Source: Phenylobacterium sp. (GTDB lineage: Bacteria > Pseudomonadota > Alphaproteobacteria > Caulobacterales > Caulobacteraceae). From it: a stretch of 64,000 bases of DNA. Positions 4,792 through 19,226 of the stretch are shown one piece after another. Location: NCBI RefSeq assembly GCF_022402485.1, contig NZ_JAKRSA010000033.1, positions 1-64,000 of the forward strand, read 5' to 3'. The position numbers and the translations under genes were made by a program. Within the stretch, counting starts at the first letter, position 1. The number at the start of each line of letters is the position of its first letter. The notes under the pieces are model-generated. The model made no database searches. It was not told where the DNA came from and worked only from the letters and a program-made list of their open reading frames with translations.

Positions 4792-5418
4792 ATGATCACT
4801 GTTCACCATCTCAATGAATCCCGCTCGCAACGGATTCTCTGGCTTCTGGAGGAGTTGGGGGCTGAGTATGAGATCAAGGCCTATGCCCGGGATGCGACCA
4901 CCCGGCTCGCGCCTGAGGCGCTGCGCGCCATTCACCCCTTGGGCAAGTCGCCAGTGATCACCGACGGGTCCGCGACGGTGCATGAGTCGGGCGCGATCAT
5001 TGACTATCTGATCCGCCATCACGGGGCAGGCCGCCTGCAGCCGCAAACCGGTGGGGCGGACTACGAAGCCTATCTACAGTGGCTGCATTATGCCGAGGGC
5101 TCGGCCATGCTGCCGCTGATGCTGCAGATGTACGTGATGCGCCTGGGCGAGGCAGGTGGGCCCTTGCATGAGCGGATCGCCAGCGAGATCGACAATCACA
5201 TGTCCTATCTCGACCAGGCTCTGGCCGGCCGGGATTACCTCATGGGACAGGCCCTGACCGGCGCCGACATCCAGATGAGCTTTGTGGGCGAGGTCGCCCG
5301 GGCCTTCGGGCTGCTGCCGAAATACCCCAATGCTGAGGCCTGGCTTGACCGGCTGCACGCCCGCCCTGCCTATCAGGCGGCCATCGCCCGGGGCGGCCCC
5401 TACGCCCTGGGACGCTAA
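4792..5418 (+). CDS. Glutathione S-transferase family protein
   Basis: A 208-aa cytosolic GST. The N-terminal thioredoxin-like domain (about residues 1-80) carries the GSH-binding pattern NESRSQRILWLLEELG, the cis-proline segment GKSPVI (about 51-56) and the ESGAIIDYL motif (about 65-73). The rest is the all-helical domain with the conserved GxxxTxADI-type motif, here GQALTGADIQMSF. The catalytic Ser is probably in NESRSQR. The substrate is unknown. It is divergent from mcd with a 74-bp shared promoter region. Confidence 0.88.
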   Translation: MITVHHLNESRSQRILWLLEELGAEYEIKAYARDATTRLAPEALRAIHPLGKSPVITDGSATVHESGAIIDYLIRHHGAGRLQPQTGGADYEAYLQWLHYAEGSAMLPLMLQMYVMRLGEAGGPLHERIASEIDNHMSYLDQALAGRDYLMGQALTGADIQMSFVGEVARAFGLLPKYPNAEAWLDRLHARPAYQAAIARGGPYALGR

Positions 5419-12627: not shown

Positions 12628-13784
12628 GACGCTAGGTCCCGGGCCTTGGCCAGCCGCCGTGCGCCCTCGTCCAGGGTGGCGTCAGACTTGGCAAAACAGA
12701 GCCGCAGGATCGTGGTGACCGGGTCAGTCTCATAAAGCGCCGAGACCGGGATGGTGGCCACGCCGGCCTCACGCACCGCCAGAAGGGCGAAGTCCCGGTC
12801 GGCCATGGTGACCCCGGAGGCGGCCAGGTCGACATTGATGAAATAGGTGCCTTGTGAGGGCAGGACCGAAAAGCCCTCGGCCTCAAGGGTGCTGGCCAGG
12901 CGTTGCTGGCTGGCAGCCAGGCTGACCGGCATCGTCGTCCACCAGTCGTCCAGGGTCTCCAGACCGAAGGCCACGGCGACCTGCAGATTCGGCGGTGTGG
13001 TGAAGGTCAGGAACTGGTGGGCCTTGGCCAGCAGACGGGCCAGGGGGGCTGCGGCGCAGATGAAGCCCACCTTCCAGCCGGTCAGCCCGAACATCTTGCC
13101 CGCTGAGCCGATTTTCACGCAGCGTCCGGCCATGCCTGGATAGGTCAACAGCGGGCGATGGACGGCGGGAGAGAACACCACCTGCTCCCAGACCTCGTCG
13201 CAGATGGCGATCAGATCGTGGGCCACACAGATTTCGGCCAGCAGGCTTAAGTCCTCGTCCGGCACCACCGCGCCGGTAGGATTGACCGGGGTGTTCAGCA
13301 CCAGGAACCGGGTCTTCGGCGTGATCGCCGCCTCAATCATGGCCCCGGTGAACCGCCAGTGGGGCGGGGATAGCGAGATGAGTTTGGGTATGCCGCCAGC
13401 CCGCCGGATCAGCGGCAGATAGGCGTCATAGAGCGGCTGGAAGACGATCACCTCGTCGCCGGGCTCGATCAGGGCCAGGAAGGCCGCCGCCAGGGCCTCG
13501 GTGGCCCCTGAGGTGACCACCACCTCGGTGGTGGGATCGAAGGTGAGCCCCTGGGTGCGGTGATAATGTGCGGCAACGGCGGCCCGCAGTTCTGGCAGGC
13601 CGGCCATGGGCGGATACTGGTTGTAGCCATCCAGCACTGCCTCGGCCGCCTTGCGGCGCAGGGCTTCAGGCCCAGGATCGTCGGGAAAGCCCTGGCCCAG
13701 ATTGATCGCCCCATGCGCCCGCGCCAGTCCGCTCATCTCCTCGAAGATGGTGGTCGGCAGGGCTGCAAAGGTGGCGTCAGGCAT
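12600..13784 (-). CDS. PLP-dependent class I/II aminotransferase
   Basis: A 394-aa fold-type I aminotransferase of the methionine/kynurenine aminotransferase-like group. Family features are INLGQGFPDDPGP near the N-terminus, TSGATEALAAAF (PLP phosphate), NTPVNPTGAVV (Asn-Pro-x-Gly), ICDEVWEQVVF (Asp binding the PLP pyridine nitrogen) and Lys230 in IGSAGKMFGLTGWKVG forming the internal aldimine. A broad-specificity 2-oxoacid transaminase is likely. It is upstream of no obvious partner; typA lies 37 bp downstream. Confidence 0.9.
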   Translation of the reverse strand: MPDATFAALPTTIFEEMSGLARAHGAINLGQGFPDDPGPEALRRKAAEAVLDGYNQYPPMAGLPELRAAVAAHYHRTQGLTFDPTTEVVVTSGATEALAAAFLALIEPGDEVIVFQPLYDAYLPLIRRAGGIPKLISLSPPHWRFTGAMIEAAITPKTRFLVLNTPVNPTGAVVPDEDLSLLAEICVAHDLIAICDEVWEQVVFSPAVHRPLLTYPGMAGRCVKIGSAGKMFGLTGWKVGFICAAAPLARLLAKAHQFLTFTTPPNLQVAVAFGLETLDDWWTTMPVSLAASQQRLASTLEAEGFSVLPSQGTYFINVDLAASGVTMADRDFALLAVREAGVATIPVSALYETDPVTTILRLCFAKSDATLDEGARRLAKARDLASQTLAGRSI

Positions 13785-13821
13785 GGGACGATCCCGATCG
13801 TCGCTCCGGGCCTTGGGCGGC

Positions 13822-15654
<1,833 letters not shown>

Positions 15655-15858
15655 GGGAAACCTTTTCCGGAAGCGGCGGCTTTTAGGGGACAAGACGCCC
15701 CACGGCTAGCGCGAACTGGTCACAGGCAGGTCGGAATCGGCCCGCCCCTTGTGCGTTGCAACACGAAATCACCCGTGAGCGCGCCGCATCATGCCATTGA
15801 AAACGCTAATCTTACCCTTCTAGGCCCCAATATGTTCGCGGTTGCGACATTTTTTCCC

Positions 15859-15887
15859 TTGTTCTTTTTTGCGGCGCACCGTAGATT
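15859..15887 (+). promoter_or_regulatory. Candidate sigma-70 promoter of a small RNA
   Basis: TTGTTC (15859-15864) and TAGATT (15882-15887) are separated by 17 bp inside a T-rich stretch, an arrangement expected of a housekeeping promoter. The predicted start falls at about 15893-15895, just before the first hairpin of the candidate RNA. No protein gene on this strand could use it. Confidence 0.4.
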
Positions 15888-15893
15888 TTGACC

Positions 15894-15978
15894 GTGAGGC
15901 GTCTCCGGACGTCTCTGCCCTTCCTGGGCGTTTCCTCCCTAATGAACTGGCCGCGCTTTTTAGCGCGGCCTTTTTTTT
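15894..15978 (+). ncRNA. Candidate small regulatory RNA with three hairpins
   Basis: About 85 nt between typA and the N-formylglutamate amidohydrolase gene, on the strand opposite both. Hairpin 1 is GAGGCGTC/GACGTCTC closed by a TCCG tetraloop (15896-15915; UNCG-type loops are unusually stable). Hairpin 2 is GCCC/GGGC (15917-15929). A single-stranded TTTCCTCCCT (15931-15940) follows, complementary to Shine-Dalgarno sequences. The third hairpin is a perfect intrinsic terminator. I did not recognise a named RNA family. The layout resembles C-rich-loop alphaproteobacterial riboregulators, which is inference. Confidence 0.6.
15949..15978 (+). terminator. Intrinsic terminator
   Basis: A perfect 9-bp stem (GGCCGCGCT/AGCGCGGCC) with a 4-nt loop is followed by eight T residues on the plus strand. 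On the minus strand the hairpin has no T-run after it, so it does not serve the N-formylglutamate amidohydrolase gene. It implies a plus-strand transcript ending here. Confidence 0.9.
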
Positions 15979-15995
15979 GGCCTTCGCCAGGGGGG

Positions 15996-16907
15996 CTAGG
16001 TGAGCGCGGACCAGTCGTGCCCGGTCAATCTGACGCTCAGGGCGGCGATGTCGGCCTGCAGGCGATTGAAGCCGGCGGTCGGGGTGAGGGCGGCCTCATC
16101 CAGATACAGTGCCCGGTTCAGCTCGATCTGCAGGGCGTGCACCCCGCGGGCCGGGCGGCCATAGTGTTCGGTGGTGTAGCCGCCGGCATAGGGGGTGTTG
16201 CGCACCACCCGGTAGCCGCGGGCCTCCAGCTCCACCTCCACCAGACGGGTCAGGCTGTTGGCGCAGGAGGCACCGAACCGGTCGCCGAGCACCATGTCGC
16301 AGCCGCCGGCCCCGGCGGCCTTGGCGGCGGCGGTGGGCATGGAATGCCAGTCCACCAGAATGGCCACCCCGTGGGCCGCCTGTGCCTCGGTGATCAGCTG
16401 GTTGAGTGCTGTGTGATAGGGGCGATGCGCCCGGTCAATCCGCCCTTGCGCCTCAGCGAAGGTCAGCTTGCGGGCGTAGATCTCCTGGCCTTCGGACACC
16501 ACCTTGGCGATGGCGCCGAGGCCTGCGGCGACCCGGGCGGTGCGGCTGCGGGCGAAGTCCGGCAGGGCGTCGGCGAACATCGCCGGATCGAGCTCAAAGG
16601 CGTCGCGGTTCACATCTATATAGGCGCGCGCATAATTGGCGGTGATCAGGGCCGCGCCGGCCGCCGGGGCGGCGTCTACCAGCTGATCCACAAAGGCATC
16701 CTCGGATCGCCGGATCGCCTTGGCGTCCAGTCGGGCGGCCGACATCATATCGTCCGGATAGAGCCGGCCGGAATGGGGGGAGGCGAAGATTATCGGGGTC
16801 GGTGGCGGGGCGTCTGGACCCCCGGCGCGGCGCACCTGAAAGCCCGCCGGCGCCAGGGCGGCCGGCTCTGCGACATCAAGGGGCTCTACCGCGGACATGG
16901 CGCGCAT
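15996..16907 (-). CDS. N-formylglutamate amidohydrolase family protein
   Basis: About 303 aa. N-formylglutamate amidohydrolase cleaves N-formyl-L-glutamate in histidine breakdown; many alphaproteobacterial homologues sit outside hut operons and their substrate is unproven. Family sequence includes IIFASPHSGRLYP, ANYARAYIDVNRD, DWHSMP and the C-terminal HALQIELNRALYLDE. Three close in-frame starts (16934, 16907, 16898) exist and none has a strong ribosome binding site; I give the middle one. It is divergent from cpdR, an arrangement I associate with Caulobacterales. Confidence 0.85.
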   Translation of the reverse strand: MRAMSAVEPLDVAEPAALAPAGFQVRRAGGPDAPPPTPIIFASPHSGRLYPDDMMSAARLDAKAIRRSEDAFVDQLVDAAPAAGAALITANYARAYIDVNRDAFELDPAMFADALPDFARSRTARVAAGLGAIAKVVSEGQEIYARKLTFAEAQGRIDRAHRPYHTALNQLITEAQAAHGVAILVDWHSMPTAAAKAAGAGGCDMVLGDRFGASCANSLTRLVEVELEARGYRVVRNTPYAGGYTTEHYGRPARGVHALQIELNRALYLDEAALTPTAGFNRLQADIAALSVRLTGHDWSALT

Positions 16908-17018
16908 ATGACGATGCGCCGGGCGCCGGGTCAAACGGATCGGGGCGGCAGTTCATCGGGGATTTACAAACCCACCCCTATGGTCGCCCCTATGAAAGAC
17001 GATGCCCTGGACGCGCCC

Positions 17019-17375
17019 ATGCCCCGCATTCTTCTTGCCGAGGACGACGACTCCCTGCGCGGCTTCCTGGCCCGGGCCCTGGAACGGGCCGGCTATGAGG
17101 TGCGCGCCTGCGCTGACGGGGAGGAGGCGGCCTCGGTCCTGGATCAGAACTGGGACCTGCTGCTCACCGACATCGTCATGCCCGGCATGGATGGCATCGA
17201 GGTGGCCCGACTGGCGGCGGCCCGTAATCCGTCCCTGCGCATCATGTTCATCACCGGCTTTGCCGCCGTGGCGCTGGCGGCGGGGGACTCTGCGCCGGCC
17301 GGCGCGAAGGTCCTCTCCAAGCCCATCCACCTGCGCGAGATCGTCGCTGAGGTGGAGCGGATGATGGCCGCCTGA
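17019..17375 (+). CDS. cpdR: Single-domain response regulator CpdR
   Basis: CpdR, 118 aa, is a receiver-only protein which, when unphosphorylated, brings ClpXP and its substrates (including CtrA and PopA-linked targets) to the Caulobacter cell pole; CckA-ChpT phosphorylation turns it off. The receiver residues are complete: acidic pair in LLAEDDD, phospho-acceptor Asp51 in LLLTDIVMPGMDG, and Lys101 in LSKPIHL. The family-specific FITGFAAVAL is present. The ATG at 17019 gives the exact length of known CpdR; upstream in-frame ATGs add a nonconserved leader. Confidence 0.93.
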   Translation: MPRILLAEDDDSLRGFLARALERAGYEVRACADGEEAASVLDQNWDLLLTDIVMPGMDGIEVARLAAARNPSLRIMFITGFAAVALAAGDSAPAGAKVLSKPIHLREIVAEVERMMAA

Positions 17376-17473
17376 GGCCGGCATCCCTGTGGCGGCTTTC
17401 AGCCCTTGCACAGGGACAAGCCGCCCGTTATACCGCCGCCCTTCCCGTCCCCCCCAAAAGGGGCCGCCCTTAT

Positions 17474-17548
17474 GGACGCGTAGCTCAGCGGGAGAGCACC
17501 TCGTTGACATCGAGGGGGTCACAGGTTCAATCCCTGTCGCGTCCACCA
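17474..17548 (+). tRNA. tRNA-Val (anticodon GAC)
   Basis: The full cloverleaf can be drawn: acceptor GGACGCG/CGCGTCC, D stem GCTC/GAGC, anticodon stem CCTCG/CGAGG with loop TTGACAT, T stem ACAGG/CCTGT with loop TTCAATC, discriminator A and an encoded CCA. The anticodon GAC reads valine codons GUC and GUU. A 6-bp hairpin (CACCCC/GGGGTG, 17551-17572) follows directly. The tRNA borders an accessory stretch. Confidence 0.97.
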
Positions 17549-18038
17549 TTCACCCCTACACTTTTCGGGGTGAGCCTTAGACACTTGAAATTGTCCCGAC
17601 TTCTCCGCGGCATGAGCGGAATGCGCCGCTGAATTTCGGCTCTCCGTTAGGGCTGATCAGCGCAAGACCAGCCAAACTCGCACCATGGTCTCTGAGCCTA
17701 TTGCGAGAGTGTAGGTTTCGCCGATTCTGACTTACCAGGAGCCGGATTCGTTATCCGAAACCGAGCCGTCAATCCTTATTGCCTGTATCCCCCCTCATCG
17801 GACAGGTGATCAGGAAGTTTTGTCGCCATCGCTTCGTAACTGTCCTAGTTCCCCAGGACGGCGCTGTATGTTCTTGTTTTGTTCTTGACGTTACCGCGCA
17901 TTTTCAATAGGCTTTTGTTGCGGTGAGTAAGTGCGGCCGAGCCAACGCACGTCACGATCACCGTCTTCCCGCGAATCCCAGATGTCGCTGAACCGTCCGA
18001 GCAGGCGGTGCGACGTCATGCCTTGATGGAGAGCGCGC
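17549..18038. other. Gene-poor, lower-GC spacer between tRNA-Val and the toxin-like gene
   Basis: About 490 bp with no supportable gene on either strand. Base composition is visibly less GC-rich than the neighbouring core genes, with T-runs at 17870-17920. A hairpin lies just behind the tRNA. No integrase or transposase remnant can be read. The composition and the position behind a tRNA suggest acquired DNA. Confidence 0.5.
17885..17913 (+). promoter_or_regulatory. Candidate promoter for the toxin/immunity-like pair
   Basis: TTGACG (17885-17890) is followed after 17 bp by TAGGCT (17908-17913). This is the best sigma-70-like pair upstream of the toxin-like gene and would give a leader of about 120 nt. 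The -10 match is only moderate. Confidence 0.3.
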
Positions 18039-19226
18039 ATGGCGTGGAGAGATGTCAGTCCTGCAGACTTGGAAGGTGAGGCACTGCGACGATGGTACCT
18101 TCGCTCGCCCGACGATGTTGAGCGAAGACAACGAGCCGCGGCGGACGCACGCTACCAGGCGTTCTTCGCCCCACAGCACCTAGCCCAGCCGCCATCGGCC
18201 TTTCGCCCAGCCGGGGAACCATCGCACGGCGCGCGAGGCGCTTCGATCAACACTTATATCGGGTTCAGCGAGGATGACCCAGGGTGGACCTCCACCTGGC
18301 ATGCCGGCGGGCCGAGCGGATGGCGACGAGACGAGACCCCAGGCGCGAATGGCGGGGCCAGACCGGTCCCCCTGCCCTCGCCAGCGCGCGGTCGGAAGGA
18401 TGAAGGGAGCCAGCCCGCTCCCCTTTCCCCATACTCGCCGGCAGGCGGGTCGTGGCCGGTTCCGCTGTCCCCGATACTTGCGAGCCACCCGCCATCCAGC
18501 GTCGACTTCTCGACGGCGGCACCGTCGGTTCGATCGATGTCCTACCGGCCGGAGCAGCCGGCCACTCCCAGCGAGGTCAGTCAACAGGCGTCCGTAACCC
18601 GGTCGCCGCGTCACGGGATTTGGATCGCAGGCCGTCAGCCCGGCGAGTTGGAGCCCTCCCGCACGGAGGTCTTTCGGCGGGGGCCTGATGGCAAACTCCA
18701 CGCGATTCCCGGCTGGCGCACGACAGGTCCGTTCGAGTTCGGCGAATGGTCGCGCATGTTCGACTGGGGTGGCGTCGCGGGCGACCTGACTGACATCACC
18801 ACTGGTGTCCTCGACTTCATGATAGGCGGAGGGCTTGCAGGAGAGATCGTCAAAGGCCTCGGTTACACGATAGGACCGGACATTGTCCGAGGGATGGTGC
18901 AGGGCCATCGCGCCTGGGCAAAGTTCCTTGGTGGCCCCGCCAAGCAGGACCTGGCACGACTCCACCAGAGCCTGCATACAATGTTGCATCGTGATCTGGC
19001 AGCAGAACTCAAAGCGGCCGGCTTTCCGCGCGTCGGGGGGCGGGGAGGCGGCATAGGGAATTGGGCAGAGTACTTCGCAGAAAACCCCGGAATGCAGGAC
19101 GAGGCCATAGCGATCCTGCGGAGGGTGACTCGGGAGTTCGACCGCAAGAATGGAACGAAGGTATCGAGGTACCTGGACGAGGCCCTGGTGAAAGGTAAGG
19201 CTTCCGCGTCCCCGCCCTCCCCATAA
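18039..19226 (+). CDS. Polymorphic-toxin-like protein, His-rich nuclease-like C-terminus
   Basis: A 395-aa protein of modular build. Residues 1-45 (RRWYLRSPDDVERRQRAAAD) form a short charged helical module. Residues 50-200 are Pro/Ser/Gly-rich, low-complexity linker. Residues 235-285 are hydrophobic and Gly-rich (FMIGGGLAGEIVKGLG). The last 110 contain GHRAWAKFLGGPAKQ (His290), then HQSLHTMLH (His309, 313, 317), resembling the HHxxxKxLGG...LH...H pattern of LHH/AHH-type HNH toxin domains. The first His pair is GHR, not HH, so activity is uncertain. There is no signal peptide, PAAR or Rhs core. GGAGAG precedes the ATG. The 13-bp gap to the next gene fits a toxin-immunity unit. Confidence 0.55.
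   Translation: MAWRDVSPADLEGEALRRWYLRSPDDVERRQRAAADARYQAFFAPQHLAQPPSAFRPAGEPSHGARGASINTYIGFSEDDPGWTSTWHAGGPSGWRRDETPGANGGARPVPLPSPARGRKDEGSQPAPLSPYSPAGGSWPVPLSPILASHPPSSVDFSTAAPSVRSMSYRPEQPATPSEVSQQASVTRSPRHGIWIAGRQPGELEPSRTEVFRRGPDGKLHAIPGWRTTGPFEFGEWSRMFDWGGVAGDLTDITTGVLDFMIGGGLAGEIVKGLGYTIGPDIVRGMVQGHRAWAKFLGGPAKQDLARLHQSLHTMLHRDLAAELKAAGFPRVGGRGGGIGNWAEYFAENPGMQDEAIAILRRVTREFDRKNGTKVSRYLDEALVKGKASASPPSP

Follow-up and report, generated by a model that had tools for sequence, protein, structure and literature searches.

The window analysed here, a 64,000-nt stretch of Phenylobacterium DNA, carries on its plus strand a predicted small RNA that by its sequence is the Phenylobacterium counterpart of alphaR8, the family of S. 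meliloti MmgR and Caulobacter SisA. Assignment to alphaR8 is made by covariance score, 10-mer core and terminator, and assignment as the SisA counterpart by synteny. The RNA family itself is known and the Phenylobacterium sRNA is a further copy of a widespread regulator; what appears new against the portions of the literature covered is that a PhaR-type dyad is conserved in sisA-type promoters across the Caulobacteraceae and that a second dyad lies at a fixed distance from it. The family match, the conserved structure, the synteny and the conserved dyads are established here. Taken as a whole, we hold with considerable confidence that this is an alphaR8 sRNA that would repress through its seed, be controlled by a PhaR-type promoter dyad and be released by polyhydroxybutyrate (PHB). 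Positions of the features are collected in Table 1.

Table 1. Features of the sRNA locus and its neighbours, numbered along the window.
Feature	Position	Strand	Remarks
typA	13822..15654	-	divergent; TIGR01394 931.5 bits, cut-off 757.3; start read from sequence
Distal dyad TGCGTTGCA	15752..15760	.	118 bp upstream of proximal dyad
Predicted sRNA promoter TTGTTC-17 bp-TAGATT	15859..15887	+	hexamers 15859-15864 and 15882-15887
Proximal dyad TGCGGCGCA, PhaR-type YGCRNYGCR	15870..15878	.	in promoter spacer
alphaR8 (suhB/mmgR, SisA-type) sRNA	15894..15978	+	RF00519 match, fold z
5' hairpin GAGGCGUC-UCCG-GACGUCUC	15896..15915	+	8 pairs, one G-U; UNCG loop
Middle hairpin GCCC-UUCCU-GGGC	15917..15929	+	4 pairs, predicted fold
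Unpaired seed UUUCCUCCCU	15931..15940	+	alphaR8 10-mer core; unpaired in predicted fold
Intrinsic terminator	15949..15978	+	9-pair stem-loop 15949-15970, eight T/U 15971-15978
FGase-family gene	15996..16934	-	convergent; PF05013 256.3 bits

An Rfam scan of the window, the check proposed in an earlier note made from the letters alone, was positive. Two matches exceeded their cut-offs, a tRNA and the sRNA at 15910-15985, the latter matching the full RF00519 model (suhB/mmgR, alphaR8; model positions 1-77) with 63.2 bits against a gathering cut-off of 41 bits. Besides this covariance score, the RNA has an unpaired UUUCCUCCCU located 3' of a weak hairpin and a Rho-independent terminator, and the 10-mer core is part of the alphaR8 definition given in the available sections of PMC12559287. 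A permissive search of 15700-16100 returned weaker matches below cut-off, the best of which was SorX (RF02784, 33.2 bits, cut-off 46.6); membership of this family and of SorY (RF02651, 23.8 bits, cut-off 111) was rejected. A CCUCCCU segment before the terminator is shared with the SorX alignment. The first reading of the letters had named neither the known family nor the operator-like dyads.

The position of the -10 element places the predicted start of the sRNA at about 15894-15896. An 85-nt RNA (15893-15977) folded into three hairpins (5', middle and terminator) with -42.3 kcal/mol, compared with -23.7 ± 2.9 kcal/mol for shuffled 85-nt RNAs (z = -6.42; 0 of 200 equally stable). The elements that the earlier note had described were all found: the UNCG-capped 8-bp hairpin, the second hairpin, the exposed TTTCCTCCCT, which lies in the segment that is unpaired in the predicted fold, and the terminator with its eight Ts. 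Fourteen of the 20 nt of the 5' hairpin fall outside the Rfam match, whose model leaves this hairpin unpaired. The terminator stem covaries; the terminator scan by itself was within expectation, with two terminators found in 13000-19000 against 3.4 expected in shuffles.

Conservation was assessed in Caulobacteraceae rows with linkage to FGase, typA or both, of which 61 non-redundant ones remained once 11 identical rows had been removed; loci from other alphaproteobacteria (L069-L112) and unlinked copies were excluded. These rows are relatives of each other without statistical independence and, because they were chosen by the exact 10-mer, invariance of the 10-mer across them is by construction. 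The structure alignment A1 contained 59 rows, as L044 and L048 were omitted because their 5' ends are without the hairpin; the 5' hairpin is therefore not universal. The three-hairpin structure was paired in 94.3% of 1210 cells (shuffled mean 86.0%), 13 of the 21 pairs were changed on both sides (7.9 in shuffles) and 79 cells carried double changes (21.1 in shuffles). None of 500 shuffles reached these pairing and covariation values, and when partners were slid only 34-54% of cells were paired. Two-sided changes occurred in six of the eight pairs of the 5' hairpin, where 88.5% of cells were paired with part of the rows out of register, and in six of the eight pairs of the main terminator helix. 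The four pairs of the middle hairpin were invariant in all 59 rows and hence give no covariation evidence either way. A second alignment, A2 (37 rows), was 99.1% paired, a flattering value because its rows were hand-picked for register. The compensatory changes that the earlier note had looked to for support are thus seen in the 5' hairpin and the terminator. Together with the Rfam match and the published Caulobacter SisA (PMC12559287), this covariation supports the proposed stand-alone RNA of about 85 nt and argues for a likely translational regulator with an exposed anti-Shine-Dalgarno segment.

The RNA had been placed beside typA and an amidohydrolase gene, and TIGR01394 and PF05013 matches confirmed both genes on the minus strand; the sRNA overlaps neither coding sequence. 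The FGase-family gene scored 121.9 bits against TIGR02017, the N-formylglutamate deformylase equivalog, below the cut-off of 278.75, and its nine relatives at 83-89% identity came from genomes of Phenylobacterium or Caulobacteraceae. Convergence of sRNA and FGase was kept in the linked relatives, and a typA start was readable upstream on the opposite strand in 47 of the 61 rows, linkage being judged only within the sequence stretch around each locus. Position downstream of an FGase-family gene marks SisA orthologs, and it was found in the window copy as in its relatives; for Caulobacter SisA this linkage is published (PMC12559287). C. crescentus SisA (CCNA_R0014, PMC12559287) also shares the UUUCCUCCCU after a weak hairpin and the terminator, whereas the Phenylobacterium sRNA is distinguished by a proximal dyad with a second dyad at 118 bp. 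With S. meliloti MmgR it shares the RF00519 family and a PhaR-type dyad within the -35/-10 region. However, a single PhaR site is tabulated for mmgR in the available part of PMC12542648, while Phenylobacterium has two at fixed spacing, and linkage to typA is seen in Phenylobacterium.

Matches to RF00519 above the cut-off were present in 39 of 40 Phenylobacterium genomes sampled and, at the family level, in 57 of 60 Caulobacteraceae genomes sampled. The source genome has two such copies, the window copy and a sibling with 62.8 bits (L002; C33 near 18465, 1440-1580) located between acetyltransferase-family and TauE-family genes. The sibling has neither the 5' hairpin nor an upstream dyad and is probably under different control from the window copy. 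A third match (L003, 36.1 bits, below cut-off) was rejected, as it is a terminator directly after a gene and has no 10-mer; we take this gene to encode ribosomal protein S4. In one group of alphaR8 paralogs from Phenylobacterium (L005, L006, L007, L011, L014 and L126), the dyad is not in the promoter spacer but close to the probable start site, only 43 nt before the seed. A Devosia MAG (L074) contains three tandem alphaR8-like copies beside FGase, with seeds at 4906, 5316 and 5645.

Both hexamers of the promoter proposed in the earlier note are present, and support for it comes from conservation of the elements around the dyad. The hexamers agree with the E. coli consensus at three of six (TTGACA) and four of six positions (TATAAT) and were absent from the list produced by a sigma-70 scan; the case for the promoter therefore rests on conservation. 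The dyad between -35 and -10 was found by aligning the upstream regions. YGCRNYGCR was present in the spacer of all 61 Caulobacteraceae rows compared with 819 of 17037 control windows (4.8%), and TGCN3GCA in 57 of the 61 compared with 3.2% of 11270 control windows. In 59 of 61 rows the dyad is flanked by TTG and TA at constant distances, an arrangement seen in 0 of 17037 control windows; this comparison is flattering because the pattern was written after the rows had been viewed. The proximal dyad of the window is slightly weaker than that of most rows, its left arm being TTGC rather than GTGC. Within the 110 nt that precede the seed, at least one YGCRNYGCR dyad was found in 16 of 17 linked or nearby copies from other alphaproteobacteria and in 11 of 22 unlinked Caulobacteraceae copies. 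Five loci from other alphaproteobacteria (L074, L093, L096, L100 and L107) carry paired dyads ahead of the sRNA whose members are separated by about 20-22 bp, a spacing that differs from the 118 bp of Phenylobacterium.

YGCRNYGCR is the core of the S. meliloti PhaR motif (PMC12542648). According to the available text of that study, PhaR shifts the mmgR promoter in EMSA and mutations in the palindrome abolish the shifts; a review, as far as its text was available, reports that the -35/-10 region of mmgR contains a conserved dyad and that AniA/PhaR controls the gene negatively (PMC8401924). The motif core occurs here at TGCGGCGCA and TGCGTTGCA, and PhaR is encoded in the same genome (TIGR01848, 163.5 bits; PF07879 and PF05233 matches), as it is in all 60 sampled Caulobacteraceae genomes. 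This genome also encodes PhaC_N, the N-terminal domain of PHA synthase (254.2 bits), and a Phasin_2 gene preceded by two PhaR-type dyads. The pattern TTKTGCNNNGCAMM had eight hits at six places in the source genome, among them both sRNA dyads and the phasin promoter, and its reversed form had three hits; the plainer TTGTGCNNNGCA had 13 hits compared with three for its reverse. Two PhaR-type dyads 15 bp apart also precede a 35-codon frame, MFAAIERFLALWLAPLANELARMPPSAQRDLLIGL (L225; C17 near 109350, 1489-1634), which could possibly encode a small PhaR-controlled protein.

A literature search covering titles and the openings of abstracts found no report on the Phenylobacterium RNA or on PhaR control of SisA, and the text of the SisA paper (PMC12559287) contains no occurrence of PhaR and none of typA. 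The claim of novelty is limited in that the primary work on the mmgR promoter and on alphaR8 phylogeny is known as citations only. As described in the sections of PMC12559287 available, SisA is nearly constitutive in Caulobacter and the paralogs sisA-D have no common upstream motif, which disfavours a strong PhaR switch in that organism.

A second dyad was present 105-135 bp upstream of the proximal dyad in 47 of the 61 rows, at a spacing of 110-131 bp with a mode of 118 bp (20 of 47). It was found in 46 of 47 typA-linked rows but in only one of 14 rows without typA, and in that lone row (L118) the site lies inside an upstream reading frame; the distal box therefore goes with typA linkage. This association favours an alternative in which the distal dyad is the operator of a divergent typA promoter, the fixed distance between the dyads reflecting a fixed typA start followed by a variable leader. 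We regard this alternative as a serious contender, although we would put it somewhat short of even. What counts against it is that in typA-linked rows the distal dyad keeps its distance to the proximal dyad (SD 3.0 bp) and not to the typA ATG (SD 38.3 bp, range 66-277), and that the typA strand shows no conserved -35/-10 near the distal dyad. In 44 rows that were less than 75% identical between the dyads, the distal dyad and its edges were conserved and the remainder hardly at all, with the divergence overstated where spacing varies because identity was taken ungapped. The spacings in the 47 rows, 110-131 bp, followed no clear whole-turn rule of helical phasing; we claim neither such phasing nor a site for a bending protein between the dyads, which was also considered. 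Two readings of the distal dyad stand, namely a bridged operator partner for the sRNA or the box of a divergent promoter of fixed place, and the box may serve typA.

The remaining explanations concern what binds the dyads and what the RNA does. It is unlikely, in our estimation, that a regulator other than PhaR binds the dyads. The comparison was limited to the short core YGCRNYGCR, whose occurrence in control windows leaves room for such a protein, but the same motif class has been proven for PhaR by EMSA at mmgR (PMC12542648, available part), and PhaR is found throughout the sampled family, with the same boxes in the phasin promoter. We consider it quite improbable that the sRNA acts mainly in cis. 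Read-through from FGase would in that case produce an RNA antisense to the sRNA, with AGGGAGGAAA, that either titrates the sRNA or comes under its regulation. A gap of 17 nt separates the FGase stop from the sRNA U-run, and no U-run comes after the hairpin on the minus strand (15850-15996), so an antisense RNA by FGase read-through is possible, and the convergence is conserved; yet the sibling and paralog copies are located away from FGase, and SisA works in trans on reporters (PMC12559287, available sections). That the hairpins arose by chance and yield no RNA is something to which we give practically no credence: the terminator scan by itself would be compatible with it, but the Rfam match, the fold z, the covariation and the conserved upstream elements all argue against it.

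The explanation that we prefer is therefore the PhaR-controlled alphaR8 sRNA. By homology, it would be transcribed from its own promoter, end at the intrinsic terminator and most likely be bound by Hfq; gel shifts have shown Hfq binding for R0014, the RNA since renamed SisA (PMC11005374, available part). The exposed UUUCCUCCCU would, again by homology, reduce translation of a group of mRNAs by pairing with their purine-rich ribosome-binding regions. Because a PhaR dyad lies in the promoter spacer, free PhaR probably represses the sRNA, with binding predicted from the motif, and stored polyhydroxybutyrate would titrate PhaR and so release the sRNA. The second dyad may let PhaR bridge both sites, a loop suggested by spacing. 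We further propose, as a rather doubtful extension, that across Caulobacteraceae sisA is a switch that senses carbon storage directly, in which PhaR forms a short DNA loop over the sRNA promoter between two operators about 118 bp apart and stored PHB releases the sRNA as a broad translational repressor; the same loop could possibly also gate the divergent typA. If functional, the two-dyad arrangement would tie PhaR, a sensor of storage polymer, to a major seed-pairing sRNA of the Caulobacteraceae, and if the loop reading is true the Caulobacter feast-famine circuit (SisA/CrfA) would be placed under a PHB sensor.

The available sections of PMC12559287 describe Caulobacter SisA as an Hfq-associated RNA that represses its targets via the 10-mer; with a C40G change a target reporter is no longer repressed, and during carbon starvation SisA-D are sponged by CrfA. 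A search for AGGGAGGAAA, which is exactly complementary to the 10-mer, gave five matches in the source genome, two of which are in the alphaR8 genes; the others are opposite a long frame, inside a long frame and in a CYTH-CHAD leader. None of these three places resembles a separate sRNA gene, so none was accepted as a CrfA sponge, the search being confined to exact 10-mer complements and too crude to exclude CrfA. The CYTH-CHAD leader (L143; C17 near 131924, 1501-1535) has the perfect seed complement 24 nt before a GTG start. Its predicted pairing with the sRNA is -22.2 kcal/mol, matched by 0 of 3000 random windows, but this strength is circular because the leader was picked by the same complement pattern; the gene is a candidate target only. 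For the phasin leader the predicted pairing energy of -6.9 kcal/mol was less favourable than that of 92% of the background, which disfavours direct sRNA-phasin pairing in the stretch tested. Predicted pairing was likewise weak for the typA (-7.5 kcal/mol) and FGase (-6.7 kcal/mol) leaders and ordinary for phaR (-14.2 kcal/mol, a strength reached by 14.9% of 3000 random windows).

We also surveyed AGGGAGGAAA in 11 genomes of genus g13 and 10 Phenylobacterium genomes, viewing 30 and 26 loci, respectively, and 20 further stretches in g13 after alphaR8 copies had been removed by a simple rule. The loci viewed included more alphaR8 copies, repeats, intergenic and coding places, and one recurrent ribosome-binding site. 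The last was found in four g13 genomes (L161, L165, L203 and L204), where the ribosome-binding site directly preceding a gene whose product starts with MKT is a perfect complement of the seed; this gene is likely a recurrent alphaR8 target in genus g13.
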